A DNA stretch of 64,000 nucleotides from NCBI GenBank assembly GCA_039566865.1, contig CM076947.1, forward strand, positions 19,159,501 through 19,223,500, in the 5' to 3' direction. Below the pieces are notes generated by a model. That model ran no database searches. It was not told the origin of the DNA and saw nothing but the letters and a program-made list of their open reading frames with translations. The stretch's first letter is position 1; every line of letters begins with the position of its first letter. The position numbers and the translations under genes were made by a program. This DNA is from Aurelia coerulea (lineage: Eukaryota; Cnidaria; Scyphozoa; Semaeostomeae; Ulmaridae). Below, piece by piece: positions 40 through 62,164 of the stretch.

Positions 40-700
40 CCACAAACCCATTGTTTTTTTCACCACACAATGAAAGGGCAGGCATCACAGTTTTTGAATA
101 CACTAAAAATTTCCATGTTCTGAAACTTTTGGAGCAAGCGAGAATCCCTCAAAAGCAACAGGACTTGATAACATTGCAAGGAAAATTCCTTAAAGACAAT
201 GCACCAATTTTGGCAGAGCCAATTACAGAGCTGTACGATCTTTCCATCTCCCTATCACGTTTTCCAGATGATTGCAAACAAGCTAGATTAAAACCACTTT
301 TAAAAAAAGGGTAGCAAAGAAGAACCAAAGAATTATAGACCAATCTCACTTTTGCCGCAGATTTCTAAGGTAATTGAAAAAATTATCCACAAACAAATAC
401 AAGAATACCTGGATACGAACAGATTCTTTATCGATCCCAGTTTAATTTTCATCGTTACCACTCAAGAGACACCTGCTTATCATACCAAAGTGACAAAATC
501 ATACAAGGATTTCAAAATAGTATAATGTTTACTGGCATGATATACTAATCGATTTACAAAAAGCTTTTGACACGATTGATCACAAAATCTTCCGAGAAAA
601 AAGGATACACCTTTGGCTTTGCCGATTCAGTAATATCTTGGTTTCGGTCTTACCTGACAAACCAAACTTTCTTTGTAAACATAGCACAGTGTTCCAGGGC
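40..700 (+). mobile_element. LINE reverse-transcriptase fragment, 5' part (split copy)
   Basis: Frames broken by indels encode RT landmarks: FPDDCKQARLKPLLKKG, then (shifted) NYRPISLLPQISKVIEK and KAFDTIDHK, then SWFRSYLTNQTFFVN. These are RT domains 0-3 of an APE-type LINE. The reading is decayed. The second half of the same RT resumes at about 2172, so the 701-2171 foldback is an insertion. Confidence 0.75.
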
Positions 701-2171: not shown

Positions 2172-2830
2172 ACTAAAACGAAAATCTGGATCACAGTGCA
2201 TCGAGAAAGAGACCTCATCACCTGGGAAATCATCATGTGGAGCTCCACAAGCTCCTATTCTTGGCCCACCCATTTTCCTCTTGTATGTCAATGATATGCC
2301 TCAGGCAGTTGACTGTGACCTTCTTTTATATGCAGATGACTCCTGTGTTGTATTCAGTGACAATAACGTGAATAAAAGAGAAAAACAACTAAATAAAAAT
2401 GTCAACTCCCTTTGTGATTGGTTTGTTGATTACAGACTAAGCATTCACTTTGGAGAGGACAAAGCGAAGTCTATACTTTTTGGCAGGAAAAATAAACGAA
2501 CTGGCAATAAGAAACTGGATTTAAGAAGTGGTGACATCAAAATCAAACAACACACCTCAGTAACGTATCTAGGCTTATTCTGGACGAAAACCTGTCCGGT
2601 GAACTAATGGCCACCAGGATCCTGCGTAAAATCAATGGTAGGCTAAGGTTCCTCTATAGAAAGCAAAATTTTCTTGACTTCTCTCTTCGTAGGTTACTAG
2701 CAAATCCTCTAATCCAGCCCCACGTTGACTATGCATGCAGTGCTTGGTTTCCATTGATTAATAAAAGGTTAACCAAAAAAATGCAAACAGCCTAAAATAA
2801 ATGCATAAGGCTCTGTTTGAATCTAAATAA
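2172..2830 (+). mobile_element. LINE reverse-transcriptase fragment, 3' part (split copy)
   Basis: The ORF at 2158-2607 encodes GAPQAPILGPPIFLLYVNDM and YADDSCVVF: RT domains 4-5 with the catalytic YADD. A frame change leads to the thumb region in 2607-2795 (RILRKINGRLRFLYR, HVDYACSAWFP). Same element as 40-700, split by the foldback. Stops and frameshifts make it dead. Confidence 0.85.
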
Positions 2831-3038
2831 TAGAACACATATAGGAATCAAAGAATTTAAAGATATAAATTGGCTCTTGTTCAAGAAATTCATGTAGTTT
2901 TTGAGAATTCCTTGAGAATTCTGTAATGTTATGATAATGTGCACAAGGTCTACTGTAGGTTTGAAATTAACATGTTATAAGAATTCATTAGCATTGGAAA
3001 GTTTTGCGCAATGTTTCTTTTAGTTGATATACTGTATA

Positions 3039-3128
3039 ATGGAAGTGGATTCTACAGTTACCATCAAAGTGAATGGCAGAAATATAAAAGCAGTGGTTGT
3101 AGAAAAGGGACCGAAGAAGGTTTTCAGG
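3039..3128 (+). CDS. Exon 1: start codon and first strands of Tudor-like module 1
   Basis: ATG at 3039 has A at -3 and G at +4, a good eukaryotic start context, and an in-frame TAG lies at 3021-3023. It encodes 30 residues ending EKGPKKVFR, then a strong donor AGG|GTGAGT (phase 0). The pattern (charged beta hairpin, then KGPxxV) is repeated in exon 4, which supports the reading frame. The TTTCTTTTAG just upstream could also be a splice acceptor, in which case the coding sequence might begin in an earlier exon; the in-frame stop and the good ATG make 3039 the simpler start. Confidence 0.75.
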
Positions 3129-6100: not shown

Positions 6101-9100
6101 TCCAATAAAAACTTAATTACAATATACAGCTAAAATAACCTTTCACTAAAAAACCATAACTTTAAAACCCTATTTACAATTATGCAATATTTACAATTGA
6201 AAGAAAAATTAACCCTTTATTGACTTTTTAAAACCATTCAGGGAGGATGCCGTCTTAGATTCAGCTGGGAGGCTATTCCATAGTTTAGCTCCCCGGAAAG
6301 AAAAGCATTTTTGCCCATTTGTTGACTTTTTCTTTGGCAACTTTAAATCAGTTTCAGTATTCCTGAGACTGCGGGAGGAACTTGTTGAGTTTTTGATAAA
6401 AAGGTTACACAGGTATTGTGGAGCCAAATCATTGAGCGACTTGAAGACCATCATTTTAGACTCAACATCAATGAGTTCTACGATAGTCTTCCAGCCCAAC
6501 TCCTCGATAAGTTGTCTGCTTGGGGTTTCAAAGCTGCTATTTGTAATTATTCTAGCAGCACGATTTTGAAGCTTTTGCAACTGGTTTATGTCTGTAGAAC
6601 CAGCACAACCCCAAACAGAACAACAATATCGAAAATGGGGCTCAACAATGCCTGTGTAAAGAGTTTTCAAACTCTCCTTAGGTAGAAAAGACTTAGCATG
6701 TCTTAAAAAGCCGATTGCCCTGGAGACCTTGGTAGAAACTGCCTTAATTTGCTCCTTCCAGTCCAAAGAGCTATCGATTTGTACTCCAAGGTACTTTGTC
6801 TTTTGAACTACTTCGAGCTCATTGTCACGTATTTTCAGTTCCAAGACTTCGTTTCGACTTTTGAGAGAGTTGTGTTTCTGCTTTGTAGATATAAGCATTG
6901 AATGAGTTTTTGCTACATTCAAGGACAGCTTATTGCCTTGCAGCCAAGTGTCCAGTTTTCTAAGATCACTGTTTATAGCCTCATTCAACTGAGTCAAATT
7001 GTTCGACTGTTGGCACAGACTGGTATCATCAGCATACATAGTCACAGAGGAATCTTGGACAGCCTGGGGAAGATCGTTGATATAGATGAGGAAGAGAAGG
7101 GGGCCAAGGCATGACCCCTGAGGGACTCCCACTTCTATTTCCTGGATATCTGAATCAACACCGTTAACCCTACAGAATTGTTTGCGGTTGGATAGGTAGG
7201 ACCTAAACCAAGATAGCTCTCGCTGCTGCACGCCATAAAGTTCGAGCTTTTTACAAAGAATGTCGTGGTCGACCGTATCAAATGCTTTTTTCAGGTCAAT
7301 AAACACTAATCCCACCAATTTACCGAGATCAAGCCCATTGTACCAATCATCGTTCATTTTAAGCAAACAAGTCAACGTGGAGTGAAGGCGTAAAAACCCA
7401 GATTGGTATGCTGTCGCAATTATTAAGGAAGCAGCGTTCATTATGCTATCACCAGTGGCGGAAGTTATGGGGGGGGGGTTGGGGGGGCAATTGCCCCCCC
7501 CCAATTCGATAAGACTCGGAAATTTTCTTAAAAGTCGGAAATTTCGTAGGTGGGATTGAAACTGTAGTGAAGAAACGAGTCACCGTCAAGAAGTGGACGA
7601 GTTTTTATATAGAAAGAGCAAACGAAATGAACAAGCTCGAAAAGCATATTCTAAAGTTTTTATTTACTTTCATTTATTTCATAAACGAGAAGAAAGTTCT
7701 TGGGTATGGGTTAGTTAGAGAGTAACAATATTTCCGCGAGATGTTGAAGCTTTGGGAGAGGCATTCTAAGCCAATGTGAAGGTGGGAGTTCTCCAAAATT
7801 TTCCTGGACGCGACATTAACACAAATTATCAGCGAATTTTCAAAGTTTCCATATTGGGGGCGGGGGCAGGCAAAACCTGAATTGCGAGAAGCGTTCTAAG
7901 ACAAAGGAGAGGTTCTTCACGCAGAACTGTTTTGAGAACTGGTAATTCATATTATCATATATTCTAATTTGGCACTGGCAAACATTGGATACAAGAGCTC
8001 TCCTAAGCCCAATTAAACTATCTGATTACCCAAAAAATTTCCTTGGGATGCTACTCTGAAAAAATGTTACAACATTGTCAAAATCCCAATTCAGTACTGG
8101 TAAACACAGGGTCATGAAAGGCATTCTAAGCAAAAATAGGGAGTGTCCTCAAAAATTTTCCTGGGGGCTTCGCCCCCAGCGTCCTCGTGGCTATTAGGCC
8201 TACCGACAGTACGTTCATAATACATTCTTGCCTTTTTCTATCAGCCGCTGAATATAAATAGTTTTGAAATCTGATATACAATGACCTTAGCACCCCGGGG
8301 GGGGGGGGTACTTGACTAGGGAAGTGACGGGGGTGTGCAGAAAACCTCTCCACACCCTGCACCCTGTCGCATAAAAAATAGGCCAAAAGTATACCCTGTC
8401 GCATAAAAATTTTGCCTCTCAAATACAGTGTAGAACGCAATTTTTGCTTGTGATACCCTGTCGCATAATTTTTTACCTATTATAATACCCTGTCGCATAA
8501 TTTTCGCTAGAAAATGACACCCTGTCGCATAATTTTTACCGCAAAAGGACACCCTGTTGAGCGGCACATCCCGTCAGGTCATGTGTAGCAGTGCCCCCCC
8601 CCCGGGCTTAGCACATTTAAGGAACTATTTATGTCAGGTCTAAGTCTTCTAGCGAAATGCCTGAGAACAAAAGCATTTCCTCCGACTCGGAAAATTTACG
8701 GCTTGCCCCCCCACTCAAAAAGCTGAATTTCCGCCACTGGCTATCACGAATTCAATGACAGTTGAAAAAATTACAGGCAAAAGTTACATATCTAATTTAA
8801 TATCTAATTTAATAAAAACACCCCATGGTTAAAGATGGCAGGGATAGCATTAAAAGGTCAATGCGACCTTGTTTCCATAATGGTCCCTCCAGGAGTGCCC
8901 TTTGAAATTTCCATTATTTCATTTTAAGGTGACCTATGATGGCTGGTCAAGTATTTATGATGAATACGTTACAACAGAGCAATGCACTGCTGTAGAGGAT
9001 GGAACTCAAGTCACTGATGAAACAAGCGTAAGTCTCTTTGTTCATCATTTGGTAGAACTCACGTATTAATATACTGTTGAAGGATCCTTGTCATTCAGGA

Positions 9101-12100
9101 TCCTCCGATACTTTGTGGGCACGCTGAAATTTCAGACACTTTTTGTCGCTTTGCCCTTCATTTGACATTCAACGACGAGATCTTCTCGCTGGAGTTTCGG
9201 ATCTACTACGACCATTTGCTGATATCACCAGTCTTTCAAACGATTTTCTAATGCACATTTTATTATATGGTGACCAAGACCTGTCTAATGACCTGAATAG
9301 AAATATACTCGAACTTACTATACGATTCATCCACAATATAGGTCGGTTTGACTAATATCATATCAAGTTTCAGTCACATGTCATGCAACCGCCAAGTGCC
9401 CACCAATTGTCTGAAGTAAATTTTCTTTTTGTTTGTAATTTCTGTCTCACATTAGATGTCAGGTCCAAAATAAAAATTTACATTTTTCGGGCAAATTACA
9501 GCCCCGACCAGACATCTAATGTTAGACAGGCCACAGTCATCGCTTTTTTTTGTAGCATTGTTTGTAGCATCTATGTCAAATTGTATGCAGTTTAGCTTTT
9601 TTTTTTAAACAATGCCATGGGGTAGACATAGACTTTTGCTCCTCGTGGCATCGTCCTTGTAGTATTGTAAAGTAGTTTGTAGGTAAAGTAGTCTATGTAA
9701 AATGTATTGTAAAATTTTAATTGAATATATAAAAAAAAAATTCAGACTGTCTGAAAACCAAATTTGGCCTGAGTGGATACCATGGGTCCACACTGCAGTA
9801 GTTGAATTGATGGAAATGTTTTACTTTAGTTCAACTGTTCTATCCGTTGAGCTAATGAGCTGTGAATATACAGGGTGTCCCCAATAATTGTGCCCCGTTT
9901 GCCGTTTGCCTAAAGATGGCAACCAAACACGATTCGCGCCAAAATTTTGTACGATTTGCTCTTCAGATATTCAATTAAAGTTTGCTACTATCCCCGCTAA
10001 AAATGATGGAGCGATGACCTCCAGGAGACCAAATTTGAGTGATGACTGAAACCAGCTGTCGCCCATTTTGTATCACTATTTTGCAGCGATAAATAGCTCC
10101 ATGGTTGAAATGAAACAGCAGCCTGTAATGTCATAGATCTCGTGAAAATTCTGATAATCATCACAGAGTTTTCAACTATTTCTTACCTTACTGAAACTAT
10201 TTCTTATATCACATGAAGCTATTTATCAATGCAAAATAGTATGACAAAATGGCCGACCGCTGGTTTCAGTCATCAGGCAAATTTGGTCTTCTCAAGCTCA
10301 TAGCTCCATCAGCTTTCAAAGGATTTTTACGGGGATGGCAGCAAACTTTATATCAACATCTGAAGTGCAACATCATAGAAAAGTTTGGCGAGAATTTTTT
10401 GCCGTTTTGTTGCAATCTTCGGGCAAACGGAGGACAATATTTTTGAGACACCCTGTATAGTCTCCGTTCAGGCCAAAAAGTCTGAAATTATAGCCTTCCG
10501 TTAACATACGTTTCCGTTATTATCCTATATACATTTTGCCTCTTTGTTAAATTTGAATAAGACAAATTGTATTTGTACTATTCCATCCATTCTTTCTTTC
10601 TTTGTTTTACCTGTTTGTTTAAATAACCCGAAAATCCCTCATGAATTCAGAACGGATTTACCGATTTCAGTTACTTGAATTTATTAAATAAATTTGAACC
10701 TATCCATAATTTATTATTTCATTTATCAATATCATCTTATTGATGTCCAGGGAGCTGGCAGTGGCCTTTCAAGTGAGATTTGTTTTTTCTGACTCATCTG
10801 ATAGAATTCCTAATATTTAATATACCGGGTGAGCCAGAAAAAAAGTTCCCAATTTTGAAAATTCGTAACATCAAGAGTACTGAATGTATTGGAATGAATC
10901 TATTTTTGCTTGACAGCCAAAAGATTAGAGTATTTTTGTGATTTTTCACGCGTTCTTATGAGGACTGGAAAAACTGGTGAAATCAAGTTTACAAAAACTT
11001 GATGGTTGCCAAATGACTGGAAAAGGCCTAAAATGCTTTATCAAATTATAAAGGACTCCTCGCTCAGAACAACAGAGTAAATACAATTTCTCAGGGGTGA
11101 GAGATATCGTTTGCACGTCTATTGCCATAACATTGAAATCTTTTGTATCTGTTTGAAAATCTATGTCTTATAACTCTCGAGAGATGTGAATGCCTGTGCG
11201 TATTGTTCTGTGTGAGGAGAGTCCTAACGATTTGATGAAGTGTTTTAGGCCCTTTTTAGTCATTTTGCAACCATGACATTTTCGTAAAGTTGAATTGACC
11301 TATATTTGCATTGCTCGTAAGAAGACGAAAAAATTACAAAACTACTTCGATCTTTTGGCTTTTAACTAGAATTTGAATTATTCAAATCCATGAAGTACTT
11401 GCGGTGCTACGAATTTTTAAAAGTTGGAACTTTTTTCCGGCTCATCCGGTAAAATATGTAACATTTAAATATTTGTTCTCAAATGACAAGTCATCTATAT
11501 TCTTTACCTTTGATCGTATTTTAAATTGTTGCTAATCATCTTTCATTGGTTTTTTTTAATATGATGTTAAAGCGTTTTTTCTCTATGCATTGCAGATATC
11601 CAAAGATGACAAGCTGACAGTGAAATGGCTTGATGGTTCCTCATACATTGGTACAGTTATCAGAACTGGTGAAGCAGTTGCCAAGGTGCAACCAGAGGGA
11701 TATCCAAGGGAATACACGCTATGGATTACCTCTAATGAGTTCGTTGGAACCGATGTTGATAAAGATAGTGGTAAGAAAATCATCTCTTTACTCTACCAGG
11801 TGTCCCAGATACAGTATAAAGATTTGGGTGGGCCCAGCGATGAGAACTTAGCTTTGATCAATGGCTATTTAATTTAAAAATGTTCATACATAGTCACCTT
11901 GAACATAGATACCTCGTTTGCTTATATTGGTACTTTGAATGTTGATATGTTAATGTTCAAATTTGCTGTCACCTCAAAACCAAAGCTTTGGCGTTTTGGT
12001 GCAATGCCTCACTCATTGATGCTGGTGCATTGAGTGTTGAAATATTTATGTTGCAACTTCCAATTTGCAGTCACCTCCAAACCAGTGCTTGTTGAGAGGT

Positions 12101-15100
12101 TTTCTGTTCAGAATTTCTTCCATGCTGAAACTTTTGGATATGTCCAAGTTATTCTTGTTATTCTCTATTGTGTACGGTAGTTGAATAGACCTTTTAGCTA
12201 TTCTATAGAAGAATCTGATCAAGCGATAGTTTTATACATTTTTGAAGGAGATGTTAGATTGAATGTCGTTGGAGCTTCTATCACTGTTACGTACATTGAA
12301 AAGTTTTTCAAAACGTATAAATATATCATTAATTTCAGATTGCTCTAAAGATGCCCTAGTGGGTGAAACTAGTTAGCAGATAACTGAATAAAAAAGCGCA
12401 CAAGATCAACTCGATGCCTGCTCTCTTTGGATGTTGTCCCTTTTCTTCTCATCGTTCACTTTATGTTAATTTCAGATTGTGTTTTAGGATATCGTAAAAT
12501 ATCTACCAAGCCCCGAATGTGGTTTAGTTAATGCCTTGGGCTTGTTAGATAGGGGGTTTATTCACAAAGTCAAGTGACGAGGATATAAATGGTAGCCTCA
12601 ATACATAAGGACCCTCAACTTACGCTCATCTGATTGAAGTGAATTAATGTTGTTGTTGTCGCTCCAGTTGAGGGCCTTATGGACTAACTCTTCTCAAAAC
12701 GGCAAAAAAATTCTCGCCAGGAACAAATTTGTTCCTGGACCAATCAGGATGCAAGACTTGAAATAACTTGATGGGATTGGCTGATTCTTCTTCAATTCAA
12801 ACTTCCCGCCAAAGGCAAACAAACGAATTCGAACAACGCGTTCGACTGAACTGCTGCAACGATCAAAATCTCAAAGTAACGAGCGAATTTACGAGATCTT
12901 TTGCGCCCCCAAGTAACCAAAATATTACTTATAGGTAGGAGTTTTTTGTTTTATTAGCTTGAAGAAACATTCATCTAAGTACTGATAACTTGTTTTGCAG
13001 TGTAGCACTTGAGGAAAACCACTTTTTGCGGCGATTTAGGGTCGGTGGTTTCAAGAAAAAATAGCAGGTTATTTAGGCCATGTCCGTTTCTGGAGGCGTA
13101 AGTCCATGAGTCGTAGTTATAGCGTCCATCAGCCTATCAATAGCGATAACCTACGAAAATATAATCAGTCTATATAAATGGTAGCTTTTTAGTTCTTTTC
13201 CCCGATATTTTGAGGAGTCAATATACTATCGGGTAAGTCAAGAATTGTTTACACGTTTGGTGGACTGTGGAATAAAGCGTATGTGGCCGATATTTAAAAC
13301 TAAGATGTTAATCTGTCAGACAAAGGCTAACTTAGATGAGAACATTTTGTTTCGTAAAATCATTGATCTTAAAGACCCAATAATTAGAGAAAGTCCTGTG
13401 AGGTGTTTGTATGGGAATCGAGAATGTCACCTTCCATTCTGGTCCATGATTTGGTGCTATTGTAATCAAAATTCTATTTCTGAAACTGACTATTGAATTG
13501 AATTTAAATATCAATGGCAAATAAATCATGGAACAGAATGGAACGAGGAAATTCTCGATTCCCATATTGACTCAATGCAGGCATTTCTCTAATTATTGGG
13601 TCGTAAAGATCGGTCTCATACTTTTGTATTCGACAACCCGTCAAATGTTTAAACTTCTTTTTGGCTCACCGAGTATTTTACGTGTCAAATACAAGAATTC
13701 GACACAGTCCTTATCCCAAACCATATCGAAAATAAAATGCAAAATTGTTTAGCTAAATAATTAAAAAATATTTGTTATCCTCTTGCGTGTGATTTAGTTC
13801 GGGGGGGGAGCTCATTAGAGAGGGGGCCTATATCAAATTTTTGCTCAGAAGGGAAGGGGCTTATTTGGGAATGGGGATAAATAGAGCTCTTATGGTAGCT
13901 AAAGCGTCTATTACATTGTATCCTCGGAATTTGAAAACCAATTCATTATCACCTTTGTGGGGAAAGGCAATCAGAAGGGAAACTTCTTTTCATGACATAC
14001 CGTTGTTAATTTATCAGAGACCACTTCAAGCATAGCTACTTTTCTGTTACATTAGCCTTAGCTAATCATCGAACAGACGGCTTAAGAGTTGAAGCGTTAA
14101 CATGCAACCCCGTTTGCACTACTCCATTTTAGCATTGAAACGGATTGATGTCAGTCCCTTGTGATCTTGAGTTAACATTAATCACATTCATCCACAATGA
14201 AAACGGGCCTTTTTGAAAACATTGATGAAACCAGAGCCAAATCAGAATGGGAAGCTTTCAAATGCATCCAGTAGCACTGTGCCAAAGACGAGACAAGTGA
14301 AATCACATCTCAACAGCAACCGTACAAATGGGACACAACTTGTTTTGGACAACCCATAGAATTTTTAAATCTTAGATAAATTGCCAAATGTGCACCACAG
14401 TGGTACAAGGTGTTTCACCGAAGACAATTTCAAATAGAATTGTATTCTTGTAGGGGGCCATTTCCAAGTTGGTCAGAAAATTATGGTGAAACTTATGAAT
14501 GGGAAGAAGACACAAGCAGAGGTGACAGCAAAAGGACCACAACAAGTTTTGAAGGTAGGCATGAATTTTTCAATGCAGTATCAATTTCCCATTATAGCCC
14601 TAATTTTTAGACCATAGAAGGTTTCTCCTGTTTTTTTATATGCTCATAATATTTACAATGTATCTAAACTACAAATACAACCTACACACAGTCACATACG
14701 ACTACATAACGAGGCCACAGGGAGCATCGAATTTCACAATAACCCTGCGGCCATTTAAAATTAACTCAAAGTTTGTTCCAAAATAGATGCCAGGTCAGAA
14801 ATTCGAAACATTTCAATGGATATCGAGATATGCATGAGTCATAGTGATGGTCGGAGGAGAAAAGCCTTACCTACCTGGTTACTATTTTGGAACAGACTTT
14901 GACAACAAATATGAAAGAAACAAGTAACAAGACTATAAAAGAAAAATTACGTGATGATAAAAAAGGAAACTGTTTGCGAGAGGAAACAATTGCAGCGATT
15001 TATCGAAAATGTTCTGATGCATGAATGATTTCCGTATTCAAGACAATTGGCAGCCTTTCATCGCCATACAATAAAACTGTAAGCATAATTTTGTTAGAAA

Positions 15101-45100: not shown

Positions 45101-48100
45101 TTTGAATGCATTATATAGTAGCTTTTCTTTTTGACCATCACGGTATTTAACAACTCTCGAGAATGCTCCAACCCTTTTGTTAGCCTTGGTGCAAATTGAT
45201 GCATCTACCAGAAGGATGTTGTATTGAATTGACTTTGTAGATGAGTGCCCATTATGTATAGGAGCTTGCCAATGATGCCTTATTTTTGTTCCATTCATTT
45301 TTTAACCGATAATATTCACATTTCTAGACTCCTTATCAGGTGTTTTTCGTAGCTTTTTGCAATGTCCATCATGTCATCGGTCTCTTCTCTCGGGCGAGGA
45401 TGTTTGATAGACGCTATTTCATCAAGTACATGTCCCTTGAAATCTTGGAATTGGTCGTAGAGTATGTCAGTCGTGCACGAGGAGGTCGAGGACGCTGGTT
45501 CAGGTTGATTGCTTGATATGTTATTTTCATATTGTGCATCAATATGAGCAGCAGTAATTTCATCACGTGTACAAATACGTGTTCAGATTGATTGCTTGAT
45601 ATGTTATTTTCATCTTATGCATCAGTATGAGTAGCAGTAATTTCATCACATGTACAAGCACGTGTTCAGGTTGATTGCTTGATATGTTATTTTCATCTTA
45701 TGCATCAGTATGAGTAGCAGTAATTTCATCACGTGTACAAACACGTGTTCAGGTTCATTGCTTCATATGTTATTTTCATCTTATGCATCAATATGAGTAG
45801 CAGTAATTTCATCACATGTACAAACACGTGTTCAGGTTGATTGCTTCATACGTTATTTTCATCTTATGCATCAATATGAGTAGCAGTAATTTCATCACAT
45901 GTACAAACACGTGTTCAGGTTGATTGCTTCATACGTTATTTTCATCTTATGCATCAGTATGAGTAGCAGTAATTTCATCACGTGCACAAACATTCTTACC
46001 TATGGCATCTGCTTTCCTGTGGGATATTTTTCATTGCAGGGTACCTCTTTTATGCAATTCGACTTGATGGCTGTTTTCAGTGCTTTAGGCCCTTTTTGGC
46101 CATATATTTTGCAATGTTTTCGAAATACTTGCCTTTACTCTTCTTCCTAACTCTTTCTATTACCTCAAGGACTTTATTTGATCACTCAAGTTAATTTTTT
46201 TCAATATCCTTTCCACTTTTCGAATCAATAAAAATAACAGAATATCAGAGTATTGAAGCACATCTTGCCTCAGCCGCCAACAACAATTTATCGAATGATA
46301 AATTCTTGCGAAGTATAATCGTAACCACAACCCTAACCCTAGCCCTAACCTGAACCCTAAAGCCCTAATCCTAACGCCTTAACCCTGGCCCTAACCCTGA
46401 CAAACAGTTTCGCATTCAATCAGAAGACAAACTGTTGGTTAGACCATTGTCATAGAGGTAAGCGACGGTAAGAGACTTCAGTTTTTTATATCAAGTAAAA
46501 TATAATCTAAATATACAATTCATTACTGGTCCCATCCACAGCAGGAAACGACATGAAGTCACCTAGTTCCCATTGCAGATGGGACGTACAAATTATAGCA
46601 CAAAATTTCCAAAAGCAAAGCAAGAAACAAGATTTTGTTTATGTTTGAAAGCAAAATTTTAATCCATCGTGATTGAAAGGTTGTTAATCAAGAACCTGCC
46701 TATAACAAGAGTTGAAATATCTTTATTCATTAATTTCTTTATTTCATCTTAGGTATTAGAAAGCGGATGGATCCTCCAAAGTTTCAATTAACGGGTCTCT
46801 ATGGCGTCGAAGTTGTTGGCTCCGATCCACCTGAAAAAGTTACAAAGTACTCCGACCTTGAAGATGAGACTATTCAAGTACGTACGGCATTAAAGAGAAT
46901 CTAAGCATGTATGAGCCTTCGATGAAAATAGCCCTGCAAAGATAATGGGCCGTGACACGTAGCAAATCATATTCGGGTAATTGATCCATGTGAACAGGAC
47001 ATACTTATATGTGATAGGCTAGAATTTGACCGCAAGTGGCTTGAGCCACTTTTATATGCTTACATTCCCTTTAAATGTAGACTCGTGATTGAGGTCCCTC
47101 CACTTTAGCTCGTTGAATTGAACTGATAGTTGTTGTTGTTACTTCAGTGAGGGACTTCGTTCCAAACACTTCAGAAAATGCCAAAGAGTTTCTTGCAGGG
47201 CCAATTCTTTGGAACCGACGAATTTTGAATAGCTTGATCGGACTGGTTAATTTTTTTGCAATTCAAACTTCCTGCCAAAGGCAAACAAATACGAGAACGA
47301 TCAAAATCTCGAGGAATTATCATTATTGTTATTATCAATTTTATTTTAACGTTGGCAACTTAAATGAATACAAAAAGCTAATTGAAGCCAACAAATTAAT
47401 ACAATATATACAGTATTTTCCCGCATATAAGAAACACAAATTTAAGAAACACAGACCCTGATTTTCAAAATAATGCCCCCATTTTGTTAGAAACTTGTTC
47501 CGGTCTGAAAAAGCCTTTTTTCTTATATAGAAACTATGTATTGAAACCTTGGAATTTTTCAGCTTCCAATTGCCTTAAATTGTACATATTTAAATGAAAA
47601 CAAGAATTTTGTATGCAAACTAAGTAAAAAGCACCGTCTTGGAATCATTGTATCATTTTCTGGAAGTGAAAATTTGCAAATACAATTCAAAATAGAATTT
47701 GTTTGTATCACAATCATAGAGCTCGATGGTACTTGATCTTTGTAATAAGAAACTTTACCCTGACCTCATTTTGTAAGAAACGCATCAGACATGAAATTGA
47801 AAAAGTTGTTTCTTACATGCGGGACACTACTGTATACAGGGTGCCCCAAAATATTGTGCCCCGTTTGCCTAAAGATTGCGACAAAATGGCAAAAGATTCT
47901 CGCTAAACTTTTATATGATGTTGCTCTTCAGATGTTCAAATAAAGTTTGCTACCATCCCCGTAAAAATCCGTTGCAAAATGATGGAGCTATAACCTTCGG
48001 AAGACCACATTTGCCTGATGACTGAAGCCAGCAGTCGGCCATTTTGTCTTTCTATTTCGCTGTGATAAGTAGCTCCAAGTGAGGTCAGAAATAGTGGAAC

Positions 48101-51100
48101 TCTCTGAGGATTATCGGAATGTTCACGAGAGCTATGACATTGGAGGCTGCTGTTTCATTGCATCTATGAAGCTATTTATCGCTGCAAAATAGGAAGACAA
48201 AATGGTTGACCGCTGGTTTCAGTCATATTTCAATTTCAATTCAATTCTCAAATAGCCTGCCATAACACTACGGTTATACCGTTCAACAGCTAGACGAGAT
48301 AACTAACTAAACATAACAGATCAAAACAATTAAAACAAACATAATTATAAACAAAAGTAGCCAAAGCTTCAAACTGGATCGGTATGTGTCTTTCATAGTG
48401 CAAATTTTGTCTCTTGAAGGTCATAGCTAGTTATCGCTATTGAAATACTGCCGGACGCTGCTAACTACGACTCATAATCAAACGCCATTATTTTGAAATG
48501 ACTATGACTGCCTCGTTTCGATAAGGGCCTAGGCGCAGAAAAGCAAGAACATTTGTAGTTTTGAAATGAAACAAATTGATTTGAAAACTTGACAATAAAT
48601 CAGTTAATGCTTAGCGAAAGCAGCAAAATAGTACCTACATACAAGATTTGATATTGTCGCCAACTGTTTTCATGGTATTCTTGTTCGTAAGACTTTGTTC
48701 TGTCCGGCTAAGCTCCTTGAAACTCTGCTTTGAGCTTCGAGTTTCCGTTGGTCAACATCAATCAATCGAATTTGCAGAAATTCCAATGGCGTTGTATTCT
48801 GTTGTATACTTTGTACATGACTTGTGTATAGCAGCCTCGTTCCCAAGGGCGTTCAAAAGTGAAAAAAGTCAGTCCAAAAATATTGCCGTAATATTATGAG
48901 TCCCAGTAAGAGCGGTCTCGGTCTGGTCATAGCTCCATCATTTTTCAATAGATTTTTATGGGGATGGTAGCAAACTTTAATTGAATATCTGAAGAACAAC
49001 ATCATCGAAAAGTTTGGCGAGAATCTTTTTGCCGTTTTGTCGCAATCTTCAGGCGAACAGGGTTCAATTTTTTGGGACACCCTGTATATATATACGGTAT
49101 ATATAAGTCAAAACGAAAGACAGAATGAGTGCAAGCATCACTGATTTGCTGCAGACTTGTACATTTTTGATATATTTATTGACTTCAATCTTCTTTTCTT
49201 TTAAAAATTGTTTTTGGCTGTGGTACCCAGGGTATCTCGACAGGAAAGCCAATGGGCGCTGTGGGCGCTTTTATGACAGGGAGCTACCTCTATCAGCCTG
49301 TTACCATATACAAGTAAAACAAGTCAATGAAATTACAAAGCTCAAATAAAATTACAGAGTTCATATTAAAAGTTGTATAAAACTATGAAAAACCGAGTGG
49401 AGAAATGTACTGTCTTCAAAGTCTGCAGTTGCAGCCTTCATCGTTCCAATGTTTGACGCTTTTCTTAAATTGTTGCACAGAATTTCAAACCTTAATTTCC
49501 TGTAGAAGAGAGTGTCAAATACGCTACCTTCTATATCGGATTGTTTCAGTACCATGATTAACTGTATTTTCCATATGAAATAAGAATGTATTGGTTTTTC
49601 TCAAATTGTATGCGAGACCTCTTTGCAGGAAGATTTCTTTCATGAAACTGGTGTTTGAATTGTTAGTAGTTTTGAAAATTTCAAGCACTAGCGATTGCAC
49701 ATTTTTCTGATGTATTGTTACAGATCTATCTTTTTCTTATACGGTTGCAAAGCTGGAAGTGTAGTCTTTATACGCAATTCGTAAGGCTCCCTCGTGCAGC
49801 CTATTGATTTTGTTATTCATGTTTTTGCTATGGAACATCCATACCAAAGGACAGTATTGGAAATGACTAGTTACAAATGCTCTTAACAAAAAGTCTTGAT
49901 TTACGAGCTTCTAGATATGCAGACATGCGTGACAAGGCAAATTGTTTGTTACCAGCCTTTTTACAAATATTGCTTACATGCTTTTCAAAACTGAGTTTTG
50001 CAAAAATCAAAACCCCCAAGAAGCAAGCTAATTTAAGAGATCTTTTGCATATCTAACCAAGCAGAATATCACTTTGTTTTAGAAGCTCAAAGAAACATCC
50101 ATCTAAGTACTGATAGCTTGTTTTACAGTGCAGCGCTTCCGGAAAACTGCTTTTTGCAGCGTTCTAGGGTCGGTGGTTTTGAGGTCATGTGCACGCTTTT
50201 TATGAAAAGCTTGGATCAGGCCACAGTTGGCCATAGTACTAAAAGTTTCTTAATTCAACATTTTCACGTTTTAGTACCACGCCCCATGTTCTTTGTGGTT
50301 TTAGGTACATCGCTCTTATTGTTCAACGGTTTTCATATCAGCACGAGTTTCATTGATTAGAAATATTTTCCAATTTCAGATGATAAAGAAACCATCCATG
50401 ATATACCTATATCTTGATCAGTCTTCAAACAAAGTAACCATGGCAACAGACTATATTGTTCAAGGTCTCACTGGTGAGGTAGATCCTGAGACTTTTACGT
50501 TGACGATGAAAAACAGTGCTGGCTCATACAAACTGAGGATCAATGCAGACATGGACAAAATGTATGGAACATATTGGAGTGAAAGAGCCAATAAAGAGGT
50601 AGGCAACTAAAGCTTCTGTTCACTCTAAATTTCTTTGAACGTTGATAAATCAAGCTCAATATACATTCGCCCCCCCCCCCTGTCTGTCTTTGGAATTCAC
50701 GATCCAAAGGGATTATCCTACCTTGCTCAACTTAGGGTTGGTCTCAGCAAGTTAAATTTCCACTAATTCGAGCATAATGTTAAGGATACCATAAACCCGA
50801 TGTGCCCAACAAGCGATGGCATTGAGGACATGGAGCACTCTTTGTTGCTCTGCCCTTCTTTTGATGCTCCATGACGAGATCTTCTCGCTGGAACGACCAT
50901 CTGTACAAATCACCAATCTTTCAAATGATGCTTTAGTGCAGCTTTTATTAATGGTGATCAAGACCTCTCTTATGACTTGAACAGAAATATACTCGAACTA
51001 ACTTTGCATTACATTCACGAAACTGGTCGGTTTGACTAAGATCTTTCAAACCTCAGCCATGCACAAAGCAGCCACCAAGTCTCTTCGCGTAAATGTTTCC

Positions 51101-54100
51101 TTTTCTTTGTAAATTCTGTTTCACATCAGATGACAGGCATTTGATTTACTTTAAATAACTAGAATGAGTTGCGCTCGCATTGATCGCAACCCTGACCTGA
51201 CATCTGATGTAGGACGGCATCTAGTATAGTATCCAGTAGTTTTTAATTCGTTCGAAGTGTAGTTGTATTTAGTTTAACGTTGCGTGTCTTTTCATATTGG
51301 CCATGGGGTAGTCATTGCCTTTTGCTCCCCATATGGTATCGTCCCCGTAGTGTTGTATAGTGATTAGAAAAGTATAGCAGAATTAAGATTTATTTTAAGA
51401 TTTTGATATGAATAAGAAAAAATCAAGCTCAGGTATACAGTAGCAACCCGCATAAAAGAACGTATGATTTTTGGAGGCAGCCTAAAAGAGGTTCTTGACT
51501 AACTGATGTAATAATCAAGTCCAGCCTGTAGGGTTCTCAAAAAGGTGCTTACAGTTGGTACTGTGCAAATGTGTTTTTGTTTCGTGCAGGCCTTGCGTTC
51601 ATTAAGATGGTTCTCTTGCCTAAGAATTCTCAAGAATTGTTGAGAAAATGTTTAGATTCTTAAAAGTTCTTGTTTCAAATATGACTCAATAGTTCTTATC
51701 AGAATGTCAAGAATTCTTGAAAATTTTTAAGACGTCTTAAGAGTTCTTGAGAATTCTTGTCAGGTTAATATGCACAAGGTCTGTACTGCAGATATGCTAG
51801 TGTATCCCTTCTTTTTTTTCTTTTTTTTTATATCAATCTCAAAGAAAAAAAAACTACAATACAAGAATCTGAGCCAATCATAGCGGGAAAAGACACATGA
51901 TCATCTAGTCCCCACTATGAATGACTCTTACAATAAATATAAACAATAATCTAATCTAACTAACAAAAGAACCCAATACCACACCACACTACTCCACACC
52001 AAAATACACTAAACTAAACAACGAGAAGACACTCTAGGAACAACGAGAAACCATGTAGAGCAGAGCGGCTCCTAGACTGAGGACATTCGTCTAAGTTTTG
52101 CTACATTGAATTAAATTGATATTTACTGTCCTGTTATAGTCATTCAAATTATAGTCATTCCAAAAAAGAAGGCAGCCCCACTCTACATAGCCCCAAGTTG
52201 CACTTCACACTACAATACAGCACAACAATCTCTCACATTACACTACAGACGAAAAGGGATTGCTGCTAATGTTGGTATTTAGTCCAACCGCATAGACCTC
52301 TCAATGAATGACAGGGTTGCTTCTAGGATTATTCTATTGTCGATTATAGTGAACTGAGGGCTGCCGTAGAGAAGCAACTCACACAATGCTTTTGAGTCCA
52401 TATTTGTAAGATCGAGACCGGGGACTTCAGAAAGCTGATCAAGGAGATCACGACGCATTACACGAAACCGATGGCAGTGCAGGAGGAAATGTGCGTTATC
52501 TTCGTTGCCCATACCACACAAGCACAGCGGGCTGACGCAGTCAAAGTTATGACGGAATCTGTGTGCATTGAGTGAGCTAAACTCCACACGAAGTTTCGTC
52601 AAACGCTTGATACCTACGAGGTCTCGAATACCATACATAGTTCTTTTCAAAGGTCGTATTGTCGATAGTAGCTTGCTCTTAAACACTGCCAGAGAGCTGG
52701 CATTTTTTATATCATCAGTCAGTAGATTCCATTCAAACAGTGTGTTATGAAAGTACGTGTTTGTAAACCGAGCCGTTCTTCCTACATTTTGGGCATAATC
52801 CCGAGAGTTTCGAAGATTGTAAGGTATCTGGCGCTCACATGGAATTTTAGCAAACAAATAATCTGGAGAACGCGTCAATCTTAAATTGTAAAAATGGCAC
52901 AGTCTTCTGTACCGTCGCCGGCTATAGAGACCTTCCCAACCCAATTCATCGTATAACCGTTGCCTACTAGTGTAGTGTATCCCTTCTATAACTTGAATAG
53001 TTTTTCAATATAACTGTTTTCGATAACGCTTTTATTGTGAAAGGTTTTGAAGTTTTGAAGTAAAGTACCATCTTTGAAACTATTACGTAAGCTTCTTCAG
53101 AAATTTCAGCCTCTTTGGGGCTCTTGTTTAGAAAGTTCTTTGTCTTTGAATTTCTGCCTCACGGTCCTTAACATTAGGTTCTTTCATGCTGGTTTGTACT
53201 GTATTTAAAACTGTTTCGTAAATGAACCTATCGATTTGTAAACTTTTCACAGCGATCTTTAACTTTTATGCTGCAAGTCTTTTGGGGTATTTTTATGCAC
53301 GTTGTATGGCGTAAACAAAAGCATTTAATGTATGTTCCCTTCTAAGTGCCAACATTTGATAACAGGCCCGGGTGATCATTGGAGAATTAACTGTACCTGT
53401 TGCTTTGTTTTAGTTCACAATATTGGTTTCAAGGGCAGAAGGAGCCTTAAGTGGTCTTTATATCATGGGTGGAGAACAAGCCCCTACAGGAATCGTGCAA
53501 CTCGGCAAGAAAACAGCTGATATCCTCTTTGGAGGGTACATTCTACCAGCAATGTTATCAAACAACAAGATTGTGTTTAATGCGCCGTACCCTGGTATGA
53601 AGAGCGTATACATGACTTATACAGGTTGGTAAAATGCAACGTTTTCTAGGCAGGCATAGCTGTGTAGTATATACCGTACATGGTGCCCCAAAAAAGTTGT
53701 GCCCCGTTTGTGTCCCGTCGCTGCGGTGGAGCTGCTACTTCATTTACCATGTTTTGCATAGTTACGTAGGGTAGTTTTCAACTTAGATTGTTGAGACCTT
53801 GTTTGAGTCAATTTGATAAGTTGTTGTTAATCTATGGACGAAGAAGGGCATAATAAGTGGTTGCTTCAAAAACAACACTTCGTTTGTTTTCCAGCTTTAT
53901 AAAAAAATCAAATGAATTTCAAAGGAGATGGTTCTAGCATCTTGTTCCATGTTTATTAAAGGATTAATGGTATCGTCTTATTGATAAGCAACATTATAAA
54001 CCCGTTTAAGATTACAGAAAACATCTGAATGCACCGCTTCTACCCTTACTTTCAAAATTTTATTGATTTTCGCTCTTCTGGAGGACAGAGGAACTGCTAT

Positions 54101-57100
54101 TTTTTAAGCAAGCATTTATTTTCCATTTCATTTCCGTATTATTATCAAACTGACTCTGGCAAGGCCTAAACATCTAAGTGGAAACATATCCCATGTAATG
54201 GAAAAAACGAGACGATTGAAATGACAACTTCTCCACACCAGCCACACAGATGGAGCATTGTTTGGGACACCCTGCATAAGGTGACAACTAACTACTCTCG
54301 AGATTGGAATAGATGCCCCATGCCCCCCGACCAGGTTTTAGAAAAAAATCCACTCAGAGAATCTTTATTCCAGTTTATTAAGTTTGATTTTTCTGGAAAG
54401 TGAAATATGCCAAATGCTGAATCGATATTCACTTAAATATCACTCGGACTATATAGTTCATTTCCGATGTTTTGAAGATTTTAGTTTGTTTCTTTTTTAA
54501 GTGATTTACCGCCAAAAAGACTATTTTATTTACCTTAGGTCAGAAAGTTCACCACTCACCCCGTTTATTTTATAGCCACCTCTATTATTAAAATTCAGTA
54601 TTTTTTTCCACCCATTGTGTTTATTACAAAGTTGAGAGTAATTGATTAGGACCTACTTTTCTTTACAGTTTCAGGTTCAGTTGCTCATTTTGAAATTCCA
54701 CAACATACAAACAATTTCAAAGTTAATTAACTAAGTGCAAATAAATACAAATGCTAACAACAACAGTGATGTAGTGAACAAATTCATAATTCGTATGCAG
54801 GGAATTTCTTAAGGAGGGGCCCTCTCAATAGATAAACTAATCGAGGAGGGAGTCTTAGGAAAGATTCAAAATTTATTTAAATATTGAGGATTGACGATAA
54901 ACTTGCGAAAATGAAGTTAGGTAAAAAAAACTGGATCTGGAAAACTTCATACTCATTCGGTGCTTCAAAATATGGTTGCTGAAAAGATCAAATTTCAAAT
55001 ACTTTCGACCTTTCGCCATCATGTTAACATTTCAAACACTGTTTTTTAAGTACCGGGTGACCCAGAAAAAAGTGACCCAACGCAATCTGTTATAGAAAAA
55101 AAGTAAGTGGCAGATTGAAATATTTCAAACGTTGTTTTGTCGCTAAAAGACCAGCCTACATCATGAGTATTTTTCGCAATTTTTTTGGGAACGGGAAGGT
55201 TTCCGAATTAAGGATTTTGAGGAAAAGGGCAGACTTGAAATTCTCAAAAAGTCATCAAAAACAGGCGATCGATTTGAACTGATTTGAAGGCATTTCAGAT
55301 CTTCAAAACAACGAGGAGCGTGTTTCATTCTGCCTGAGAATATTTTCAAGTACCTATGGACTATAAACTTGCTCTGAAGACTTCCGACTGTGTTACCTAT
55401 TCCCAGTTTGAAATGAAACACGCTCCTCGTTGTTTTGAAGATTTGAAATGGCTGTAAATCGATGCCCTGTTTTTGACGACTTTTTGAGGATTTCAGGCAT
55501 GCTCTTTTCCTCGAAATCCTTAATTTTGGAAATTTACCGTGCCGAAAAAATTGCGAAAAATACTCATGGCATAGGCTAGTCTTTTTGCGACAGAACAACA
55601 TTTGAAGCATCTCAATCGGCCACTTAGTTAATTTTCTGTAACAGATTGCGTTGGGTCACTTTTTTCTAGGTCACCCGGTACATGTTTATTAACAACAACA
55701 AAGTAACGATATGTGATAAATTCAAATTGTGATGATTTTTCATGAACAGCACTTATTTTTGACTGGCTCAGTATAACAACCCGTCCTACTTTTCAGCTCA
55801 AATTATGCTGAAACCCGATGGCAACTACTTGTATGGTTTCAGCTACCAATCAAAGGCATCTACTGAAAGGGGTCTTTTTGATGCCAAACAATATGCTGGT
55901 GGATTCCAGAAAGTTAAGAAGAATCAGGTACTACTCATATTTGACCTTTCTTATTCAAGAGCCAACATCTGCTCGAGCTTATTAAAGACGTTGTGATAAC
56001 CATGAAGCTTTGCGCGAATTTTGTCAAAACAAGGTTTTTTTTAATGTTGATGGCAAATAATGCTCCAATTGCAAATTAGAGAATGGGAAATTTGAAAATA
56101 GTCTTAAATACCGGACTCATCATAACCCATAAACGCAACAAAAACACCGAAATCAGTAGAAAGAAGACTGTTAACTCCTGTAAAAGAAACTATAACCAAA
56201 ATAAACCTGTAACAAGAGAAAAACTGTTAAATCCTGCAGGAGAAAAGCGAATTAATCTGAAAACCTGGAAGGAAAGAAATAAGTTAGTAACTCACCAGTA
56301 ACTGCTGTAAAGATCAACGTGAGATCACCAAATACTCGTTTTGTCGCACTCTCGTCAGTTTGGTTCGTGCGAAGAACGAATTAACAATAAAACAGGCCAC
56401 TTTTATTGCAGACGAACAATAGAAAATGGAAAATCACACGCCAATAACACCTAAGCCACTTATTGGCTATACCCAGCCAAAGATCAAAGCCTTTCGTGCA
56501 AATTAGAACAATTGGAACGTGAAAGTAAACTCCTTCTTTGGGCAGAGGGAGGGATCTCGAAGCTTAATAAACACCGCTTCTAAAACCTTGAGGTAGAATG
56601 CAGACCTTGCCCGGTTGTTGACTGTTCTAATTTCTTCTAACAGAGAGCAATGGCAATTATTTTGACAGCTACACATTTTCAAACACGTAAACAGTTTTCT
56701 GACTCGCTGGAAAGAAGCAGTTAAATTCATATGAATTGCTTGCTTTTAGAAAGCTGCTCTCGACACCGAGGATAATTGGGCACTTGAAATTGCTGAAGAG
56801 TACTGGCGTTGCCTTGAGGCTGGAGACTATGAAGGTTTTCTGAAAGGTTTGCCCTCCTTTTTTTTTATATTTTCATTTGAAGCTATGTCAAGCCTGAAAT
56901 TATCTCTCGCGATATTTTGTGGATGTGCTTGGTTATTGTAACGGTGGCCTTTGCCGGAATTTACTGCAAGACCTAGAAAAATGTAATACTCTCTTGAAAA
57001 ATCACTACATTTTTCAACGCTAATCCTAGTTGTTAAATGTAATGTTGCTCTTGAAAGTATAATATAGAGCAAGGCTATATGCAGACTTATGACCTCGAGT

Positions 57101-60100
57101 CCCTTGCTGCCCTGCGTTCTCTTGTTTGTTGATGTCACTTCAGTCAGTAGGGAAATTGGCTGCAGTCATTACTGTGAAATTCAGGCACACTTTAGTACCG
57201 CGCAGGATGTGGATAAGCGTCGTATGTATTCGCCAATCAAATTGCTAGAATCGTTTAGAACTCTGTTTTCAACCAATAAGGATGCAGTGTTCAGGGATTT
57301 GTTGTTGTAGCATACAAAGCTTCTGAATATCACCCAGAGTTCTCGTAGCTGTGACGGATTCATTTTGTTTGTACGAAGGATCATGACTTCTTGAAAGGTA
57401 TACATTTTGAAACTTGTAGATCGGGAAGCATTATCCTTTGTATTAACAAACGACATTTTGTTTTCCAATGTTTTGAAGTGATTTCATGGTAGCACGTTGG
57501 TGTAGGAACACTCCCCCAAATTTAGGGCATTTTGAATAAGTGTGCTGGTTATTTCATAGCAATGTTATCAGTCCCATTTGACCGAAGTGACATTAACAAA
57601 TCTAAGAGCGTAGGGAAACAAGGGATTCAAGCTCATAAGTCTAGGCAGTGTGATCTTAGCTTGTCATAGCAAACATATCTATAGGCTGGTGTGCTATGAA
57701 TTCTTCAGAGAGCAGAGCATTTAGTTTGTTAGAACTTCTTTTGAGCTTTGCTTATACATTCTTTGAGCCTTAAGCACAAACAAAATTATTTCTGTGAAAG
57801 CAAAAGTATATTTTTATTAAATTTGAAGGCAGAAACACCGCAATACGACAAAGAGCTACAGCGAATGAGTGAATTTATTTCATACCATTAGTTCGTCCTG
57901 CCATGCTGGACTTCTTCAGGGCTGTTGTGACTATTTTTAGTGCTTTTTAAGTAAAATATATTTCGCGAAGAAGGATTTTCAGCCGATGATAAAGCATGGT
58001 TAAAAATCATTTGCGGGAATGTACTATTGACTCCTTTTGCCTACTCGTGTTGCTGGCAGGGCCCAGGAGCCTGGGGGGGGGGCTCTTTTCATGCGTTGCT
58101 CCTCATAGGGCACAAGGCTGTCGCCGGTGAATTCAGAGAAGACACCATTTTGTATGCATGATTTTATTTGCAGTCTCGATACCTGAGATGAGATCAACTT
58201 TCCCCAAAGAAGCCTTTGACAAAGAGACAATTGCACACAAGCGTTTGCAAGGAAACTACATCCCAAATTCTGCAGTATATCTTGGGAAGAAAGCACAGTT
58301 TACGATGGGGAAACCAATTGGGCAAACAAGATACGACTTCAAATTTGATTTTGAAAAATGCAAGCAAGTTGAATACTCTGTATCTTACAGTGATGCTGAT
58401 AACAAGTTGAATGGTAAGTGACTTGTATGACCGATTTTAAGATACTAGATTTAGATAATTGATTTAGTCCGTTTCTTTCGTCTGCAACATAAAACTTGAT
58501 GACACCCGATTTGATCAGTTTTCATCCAATTATGGCTTGTTGAAGGATCCAAGTTGTTTTTTACTTACCCGGCATACTTTTCACCATTTTATGCAGGCTT
58601 AATGAGTTATGAAGAAGAAGCAGAGCTAATGCATGCAAGCCAGTATGATGTTATGATCAGCTATCGAAGTTGGGATGCTAGATGGATTGACTTATTGCAG
58701 GCTTTTTTGGAACATAATGGTTACACTGTTTGGAGAGACAGACGTATGGATGTTGGAGTAAATTGGAGTGAAGATATCACAAAAGCTGTTAGAAGATCAG
58801 GTTAGCCCTTGATTACGTATATTTCATACTTCATATTTGATCATTTTAAGGATGGTTGCCCTTCAGCAGAAGCTGGTTTTCAAGGGACCCGACCCTCAGA
58901 TGAAAACATTCATTTCATTCAATGTAAGGAAACCAAGTAAGATGTTCTTGTTTTGATCAAACGATAAAACCTAATTTACATCATTTGAAACCTATGTACA
59001 ATAATGGTCAACATTTGCAATCAAAAGGAAAGAATAACGTGCTGGATTCTAAAAAGCTCTCTTGAAACAATACAGAGTAGTGGTTGCCTATGCTGCTCCA
59101 TACTTTTGCACCTCTATAAGAGAAACATATCTGTCCATTTGCTGACCTCTTCGTTGATAGCCTCAGGTCTATCCCATATTATGAAGCCCACAAGATGAGC
59201 CCAGGGAATTTCGGTTATATACAGTTGAAAGTAGAAAATTAGAAGAGTTGAATTAGCTATCAGCACTTTGGGAGAAAGGACAACTTGTTTCATTGGAAAA
59301 AATGTCATTCATGTGGTTTTTCTGTTAATAACCAGAGCATTTGATTTTAACAGTGAAAGATATGATTCGAACAGAAACATGATAATGTAGTTGAAGTGAA
59401 AGGATAATCGGAACAGGATAATCGGAACAGGAGACTAAGCACCATGTTATAATTCCAAAAATGAGCCCAGGATTTCCTTAAAAGTAGCGAACATTTTCTG
59501 GGAGATTTTTCACGAAAGAATTCCTGCCCCCTGACCACCAAGATTAGAAGTGTTTGTTGATAACAGTAGCACAAAGTTAAAAGAATCGTCAGTGTGTTGT
59601 TTGATGCGTGCGTTAAAAGTTTTGCATGTTAATGCAAGCAGTCATTTTTTATGTGCTAAACTACTCTAATCAATGGACTACTGCCTTGCCAAGAGGCTAA
59701 ATGAGAAATTGTAGAGGGATTTTGGTTTTTCTTTTATTTTTCTTTTGATTCATTTCGGAACACTTCTTTTTATATCATATTATTAGATTAACTGTAAATT
59801 ATTAGATTAACTGTAAATTATTAGATTAACTGTAAATAAGGTTTTGAATTTTGTAGTATTTTGCACGGCCCCCTGTAAAGCAGTCTCTGCAGGCTAACGG
59901 GGCTACCGTGGTTAAAGAATTAAAAATGAAAATGAAAAATGAAATGAATTCAAAAGTTAGTCTTATATCTTTTAGTATACAGGGTGGCGCAATAACTGTG
60001 CCCTGTTTGTGTGGCTGCTGTGAAGGAGCTTTAGCGTTAATTGTCTCGGGTTTTTGCACAGTTGCATAGGTCAGGCTTCAACTTAGTTGAGACCTTGTTT

Positions 60101-62164: not shown

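Follow-up and report, generated by a model that had tools for sequence, protein, structure and literature searches.

In the bacterial TIR-STING and TIR-SAVED proteins of CBASS, as described in the accessible part of PMC10419184, a ligand domain lies in the same chain as an NAD-cleaving TIR domain. The Cap15/S-2TM-beta effectors of CBASS and Panoptes carry another kind of sensor: Cap15 barrels bind cyclic dinucleotides, according to the portions available of PMC10419184 and PMC12657218. In animals, a 2020 survey (PMC7075850, available portion) names SARM1 as the sole metazoan TIR protein with known NADase activity, and describes a glutamate that is critical for this activity in the known TIR cases and common in others. 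We describe here a jellyfish locus that may combine a catalytic TIR domain of this type with repeated TIR-like and beta domains.

The sequence analyzed is a window of 64,000 nucleotides from Aurelia coerulea, by which we mean the whole stretch of DNA under study. It is AT-rich (37% G+C) and its forward strand contains 24 coding exons between positions 3039 and 62164, every one of compatible phase (Table 1). The 4240 coding bases translate without a stop into 1413 residues; a preliminary description of this stretch, drawn from its letters, was right about the 24 phase-compatible exons, and its length of about 1452 residues is revised by our chain. Exons measure 90-507 bases (median 170.5), and introns are long (183-5800, median 2247). 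Twenty-two of the exons were obtained by dynamic programming over splice sites and codon usage, with a codon model seeded by nine exons picked by eye, and encode a version of 1339 residues; exons 19 and 20 were placed afterwards by homologue matches. With a generic codon model, untrained on these exons, the forward strand gave a chain of 26 exons scoring 243.5, of which 21 lie within the 24, against 69.8 for the reverse strand and a mean of 16.6 (maximum 28.2) for 20 first-order Markov sequences. We accept the chain as real because its exons match homologues: exons 7-24 match protein P0001 of the scyphozoan Rhopilema esculentum (LOC135685388) and exons 1-24 match the EukProt protein P0002, the single-exon matches to P0002 being weak for exons 1 and 4. 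The match to Rhopilema also argues for the jellyfish origin of the window, and the 24 exons likely belong to one jellyfish gene.

The gene probably does not end where the chain does. Exon 24 terminates in a donor site at 62164; a stop codon directly after this position was considered as the gene end and dropped, as the homologues place it in an intron. P0001 and P0002 go on into another beta module and an EF-hand pair, the latter above the Pfam cut-off in both proteins and located outside the window, which indicates that the gene extends past the window. The span of 3039 to 62164 first proposed for the gene thus holds for the exon chain and fails at its end.

Table 1. Coding exons of the predicted TIR gene, with positions in the window and supporting evidence
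Feature	Position	Strand	Evidence
Exon 1, beginning of Tudor-like module 1; first coding exon of the model, with putative start codon	3039..3128	+	exon chain; P0002 E 0.31
Exon 2, Tudor-like module 1	8929..9027	+	P0002 E 2.8e-8
Exon 3, Tudor-like module 1	11596..11770	+	P0002 E 3e-14
Exon 4, Tudor-like module 2, copy of exon 1	14454..14554	+	E 0.027
Exon 5, Tudor-like module 2, copy of exon 2	19552..19650	+	E 4.5e-8
Exon 6, Tudor-like module 2, copy of exon 3	21423..21606	+	E 1e-14
Exon 7, linker; Rhopilema model begins within the equivalent exon	23940..24092	+	exon chain, homologues
Exon 8, TIR-like domain 1; invariant Glu near the catalytic position	25560..26066	+	P0001 73% identity, E 3e-75; TIR_2 in relatives
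Exon 9, beta domain bA1 (Cap15-like lead)	28686..28828	+	homologue match
Exon 10, beta domain bA1	30259..30424	+	homologue match
Exon 11, bA1 end and bA2 start	34546..34672	+	homologue match
Exon 12, beta domain bA2	35389..35582	+	homologue match
Exon 13, bA2 and linker	37730..37913	+	homologue match
Exon 14, TIR-like domain 2	40161..40384	+	homologue match; hhalign 97% to TIR-like 1
Exon 15, TIR-like domain 2	41380..41586	+	homologue match
Exon 16, beta domain bB1 (Cap15-like lead)	46753..46877	+	homologue match
Exon 17, beta domain bB1	50380..50598	+	homologue match
Exon 18, bB1 end and bB2 start	53414..53624	+	homologue match
Exon 19, beta domain bB2, homologue-added	55797..55927	+	P0001 E 1e-13; splice sites
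Exon 20, NTF2-like domain, homologue-added	56750..56846	+	P0001 E 1e-5; splice sites
Exon 21, NTF2-like domain	58174..58413	+	homologue match; DUF3887 E 0.0042, sub-threshold
Exon 22, canonical TIR	58597..58800	+	P0001 94% identity; TIR_2
Exon 23, canonical TIR, predicted catalytic Glu codon 61429	61373..61536	+	alignments
Exon 24, TIR end, then donor site	61969..62164	+	P0001 76% identity

Several retrotransposon-related sequences share the window with these exons. On the minus strand, intron 4 houses an open frame of 1005 codons (15774-18788) with endonuclease and reverse transcriptase domains, an element that we classify from its domains as a non-LTR-type retrotransposon, and intron 1 contains a frame of 456 codons (6212-7579) with a reverse transcriptase domain. 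A reverse transcriptase fragment on the plus strand (2146-2604), slightly under the Pfam cut-off, lies directly upstream of exon 1. Two further minus-strand frames of 306 and 241 codons (32416-33333 and 52282-53004), which have no Pfam match at E 0.01, look by eye like the ends of retrotransposon proteins. ARAGORN found no tRNA genes.

We searched a large protein set with the 22-exon protein, scoring the 7986 candidates that shared most words with it. Three proteins were retained at E <=0.01: P0001 (72.5% identity to the window protein over 1158 positions), P0002 (63.4% over 1336) and P0003 from the hemichordate Ptychodera flava (40.6% over 1071). A search with the last TIR region of P0002 (535 candidates) returned six proteins at E <=1e-10, these three and three new ones: P0004 (EukProt; 32.3% over 1240 positions), whose label Rmarinus probably stands for Rhodelphis marinus, and P0005 and P0006 (33.7% over 923 and 32.6% over 965), whose label Phypoly we read as Physarum polycephalum. 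As the searches were bounded by shared words and length, the family reaches at least this far. Neither the TIR-like pair nor the last TIR had a confirmed prokaryotic or viral relative in searches of genome contigs and viral contigs, and an NCBIfam scan of four relatives gave matches that were all far below cut-off.

Alignment of P0004, P0005 and P0006 reveals a common core, composed of a TIR-like domain, two beta domains, a second TIR-like domain, two beta domains, a TIR domain and a final beta region. Domain order is identical in all six relatives, and the beta region after the last TIR is present in each of them except P0003, which carries the same core only up to its faulty end. The P0003 model departs from the family within the last TIR, at the catalytic glutamate, and its tail is unrelated sequence: perhaps a fault of the gene model, or a damaged copy. 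At the N-terminus of P0004, Pfam detects a PH domain (E 7.5e-15), which suggests that front ends were swapped between lineages. The order of domains first given for this locus (two Tudor-like modules, linker, TIR-like, beta, TIR-like, beta, TIR) is borne out by the exon chain and by P0002, which shows the full fusion, and its core recurs in the other relatives; the list itself must be corrected, each beta module being made of two domains and a sub-threshold NTF2-like domain preceding the last TIR. A core common to jellyfish, the Physarum- and Rmarinus-labelled proteins and, up to its faulty end, Ptychodera is new here. We found no description of the family in the open text of PubMed Central, outside which most subscription papers and preprints lie, nor in the available parts of PMC7075850, PMC5094078, PMC8195603, PMC12657218, PMC10419184 and PMC9122588. 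Nor did we find a paper in the same open text that pairs a TIR domain with Tudor, in a chromo barrel or cnidarian context; the preliminary description named no family with both and repeated beta modules.

The two domains of each beta module (bA1 and bA2, bB1 and bB2) correspond between modules, with hhalign values of 94% for bA1/bB1 and 80% for bA2/bB2 (single-pair E-values); bA1 and bB1 are 12% identical. A scan of 10 domains, with E-values for 24,736 families, points to the Cap15 barrel. At E <=10, Cap15_CD_rec matches one of seven bA1 domains and three of seven bB1 domains, and it is found in 2/6 whole relatives; the best match, in P0002, reaches 21.4 bits, short of the cut-off of 31.2. Residues 6-42 of bA1 of P0002 fall on profile positions 5-41 of 122 (E 0.033), residues 72-110 of bB1 of P0002 on 75-114 (E 0.0064) and residues 72-111 of bB1 of the window on 75-115 (E 0.042). 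bA1 aligns with the beginning of the model and both bB1 domains with its final part, in nearly the same register, the offset shifting by a few residues from match to match. The PADLOC 2TM effector model (E 0.0055, P0002) coincides with one of these matches. The whole window protein in its 22-exon version did not match Cap15 at E <=1, and bB1 of P0002 had no tblastn match in plasmids. A bA1 match to a reticulocyte-binding protein in the PDB (E 0.012) was taken as chance.

These domains might instead bind something other than a nucleotide. If they were protein- or lipid-binding and unrelated to Cap15, the trigger would be a protein or calcium, and we regard this as the strongest of the competing readings, though less likely than not. 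It draws on the lack of any Cap15 chain at E <=10 when the PDB was searched with profiles of bA1, of bB1 and of the two combined, on Pfam matches of similar E-value to other families (C2_PACS_N 0.0064, Imm53 0.011), and on the EF-hands of P0001 and P0002. Against it, two paralogous domains match the same Cap15 model in register, and a second library agrees at one of the places. Since paralogous domains of 12% identity match the same family, we argue, short of proof, that the likeness to Cap15 exceeds chance.

The NTF2-like domain is a weaker assignment. One of four rows matches DUF3887 at 18.2 bits, below the cut-off of 31.8 (residues 11-109 on 1-90 of 91), and one of four matches SnoaL_2 (E 0.039); its profile finds only weak matches in the PDB, and no counterpart could be aligned in the Physarum proteins.

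The identity of the last domain as a canonical TIR, already recognized in the preliminary description, is secure from its Pfam profile: TIR_2 scores 82.7 bits, well over its cut-off of 28 (E 3.8e-23, residues 1168-1293 of the 22-exon protein). It is the most conserved part of the protein (88% to P0001, 52% to Physarum). The feature of TIR NADases, a catalytic glutamate after the beta-C strand, is present: residue 1313 (GAA) aligns with its equivalent in plant TIR chains and is found in six of the seven aligned proteins, the exception being the Ptychodera model, which departs at this point. A glutamate is no proof of NADase activity: how often it occurs need not reflect activity (PMC7075850, available portion). 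The last TIR might instead be a scaffold, signalling through TIR-TIR assembly like the TLR and MyD88 adaptors, which we consider somewhat unlikely. Three TIR-type domains per chain would suit assembly, SARM1 was the lone metazoan TIR of known NADase activity in the survey cited above, and a profile built from five of seven last TIRs also matches TLR and MyD88 structures. However, the best structures found by that profile are plant TIRs (RPV1, E 3e-11), the NAD hydrolase AbTIR is also matched (E 5e-4), and the glutamate is conserved from Physarum to jellyfish; LRR, death and Ig families are absent from the seven Pfam families at E <=1. We retain an NAD-cleaving last TIR as the likelier prediction.

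The two TIR-like domains postulated at the outset are supported: the first is matched by TIR_2 in relatives, and the second is homologous to the first (hhalign 97%, single-pair E-values). Both are distant from the last TIR (hhalign 19% for TIR-like 1, 3% for TIR-like 2), whose profile gives a best E of 0.00012 in a search of 14 TIR-like rows, the window rows scoring 0.31 and 0.65. In the TIR-like region of five relatives, TIR_2 matches four at E <=10 (best 7.6e-7), and TIR-like 1 of the Physarum protein P0005 reaches 29.3 bits for a cut-off of 28; TIR-like 1 of the window has no separate TIR_2 match in the Pfam scan of the 22-exon protein. A PDB search with the profile of the pair found no match. 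When TIR-like rows are aligned jointly with the last TIRs of six proteins, none of the 14 has Glu in the catalytic column. For TIR-like 2 hhalign agrees, and this domain looks non-catalytic. For TIR-like 1, hhalign opens a gap and thereby pairs the catalytic Glu with an invariant one (7/7) located five residues earlier, and the status of this glutamate appears ambiguous. In TIR-like 1 (25560-26066, residues 333-468), the invariant Glu precedes the motif LTRAAERF (LTGAAERF in P0004).

In residues 1-250 a module of three exons occurs twice (exons 1-3 and exons 4-6), the copies being 52% identical. In three module copies tested, Pfam reports MBT in all three and Tudor_2 and MSL3 in two each, with best E-values of 0.0077, 0.003 and 0.021, respectively; all of these lie below the Pfam cut-off, and a few unrelated families match equally weakly. 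A PDB profile search gives L3MBTL3 (E 0.006) and KDM4A (E 0.12-0.18). The Royal-family resemblance of the Tudor-like modules announced earlier is seen at sub-threshold level in both Pfam and the PDB. Aromatic residues are conserved across a YDGW...YDEY stretch, which may be the equivalents of a methyl-lysine cage. The repeats are seen only in the window protein and P0002: at E <=5, Tudor_2 and MSL3 each match one of six relatives (P0002 for Tudor_2), and inspection of P0001, P0003, P0004, P0005 and P0006 revealed none. Because of this absence, the repeats look like an add-on to the core.

Are the Tudor-like and TIR exons parts of one gene? We consider a single, fused gene likely, as the exons lie on one strand, their phases are compatible and P0002 holds both parts within one model, in the same order. 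That our chain alone has linked two adjacent genes, one with the Tudor-like repeats in exons 1-6 and one with the TIR domains from exon 7 on, appears rather unlikely. Such a split, in which the TIR gene would start in exon 7 as in the Rhopilema model, would agree with the start of the P0001 model inside the exon-7 equivalent, after the Tudor-like part, with the lack of a visible Tudor part in P0003-P0006, with a stop soon after the exon 6 donor (ORF 21375-21611), by which exon 6 could be terminal, and with two ATTAAA motifs between exons 6 and 7 (22898 and 23872), possible poly(A) signals. It is opposed by P0002, by the donor of exon 6 and the acceptor of exon 7, both of which score well, by the frame of exon 7, which is open up to the acceptor, and by a search for stand-alone Tudor-module proteins that found none at E 0.01 among 2959 candidates of 0.55-1.75 times the query length. 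P0002 may itself be a genome-based model rather than a transcript, because its Tudor module contains an extra stretch that looks like a retained intron.

The fused gene was first hypothesized to encode a chromatin- or methyl-mark-linked TIR effector, and a mark reader that brings a TIR NADase to chromatin, suggested by the Royal-family resemblance of the three module copies and their conserved aromatics, finds no support beyond that resemblance and is very unlikely, since every Royal-family match is below cut-off, the repeats are limited to the window and P0002, and Royal-family domains bind non-chromatin partners too.

In the model that we prefer, and to which we give an even chance on sequence grounds, we predict that the window protein works inside the cell, presumably in the cytosol, as a ligand-gated sensor of the TIR NADase type. 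Its repeats of TIR-like and beta-barrel-type modules would capture a small ligand, probably a nucleotide, bA1 and bB1 acting as Cap15-like nucleotide-binding barrels. Binding would drive TIR assembly, by analogy with bacterial TIR-STING and TIR-SAVED, and assembly would switch on the last TIR, likely an NAD-cleaving enzyme; the TIR-like domains would serve as scaffolds, a weak activity of the first being possible. In the lineage of the window protein and P0002, the core likely gained its N-terminal Tudor/MBT-like repeats, which could bind a methylated partner, and the EF-hand pair expected beyond the window could render activity calcium-dependent: the repeats and the EF-hands may represent lineage-specific inputs. 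The protein is predicted to act, probably, as an immune sensor. A bolder hypothesis, quite unlikely as a whole, envisages an undescribed family of immune sensors, ancient in eukaryotes, whose catalytic TIR is under the control of paired TIR-like domains and Cap15-type nucleotide-binding barrels, and which in jellyfish was wired to methyl-mark readers and EF-hands so that three inputs gate NAD destruction or an NAD-derived signal. If true, this would be a eukaryotic counterpart of bacterial TIR-STING made of different sensor parts. A TIR that retains the active-site glutamate, within a multi-module protein apparently common to slime mould, a Rhodelphis-like protist, jellyfish and a hemichordate, would be a second, possibly older, eukaryotic route from ligand sensing to NAD chemistry, beside SARM1. 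If the beta domains bind cyclic nucleotides, animal immunity would be linked to the Cap15 branch of bacterial defence.

Among animal proteins, the novel TIR genes of cnidarians (PMC5094078) and TIR group 18 (PMC7075850) are, in the available parts of these papers, likewise multidomain TIR proteins of lower animals; they differ in carrying GTPase, kinase, SH3 or death domains, and the words Tudor, chromo and EF-hand are absent from the available part of PMC5094078. The family resembles SARM1 as an animal TIR with the catalytic glutamate, and differs from SARM1 and Toll-like receptors in that ARM, SAM and LRR are absent from the seven Pfam families matched at E <=1 by the 1339-residue model. Its first beta domain resembles the barrel of the Cap15/S-2TM-beta effectors, sub-threshold and in register, whereas its likely effector is the TIR and Cap15 chains are unmatched in PDB searches. 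With regard to TIR-SAVED, four relatives are hit in their TIR part by SAVED_TIR, a PADLOC model, and no STING or SAVED domain was found outside the TIR by Pfam (window, P0001-P0005) or PADLOC (P0001, P0002, P0003, P0005). The likeness to TIR-STING and TIR-SAVED is one of working, here predicted, and the jellyfish family is set apart from them by its three TIR-type domains and its presence in eukaryotes.
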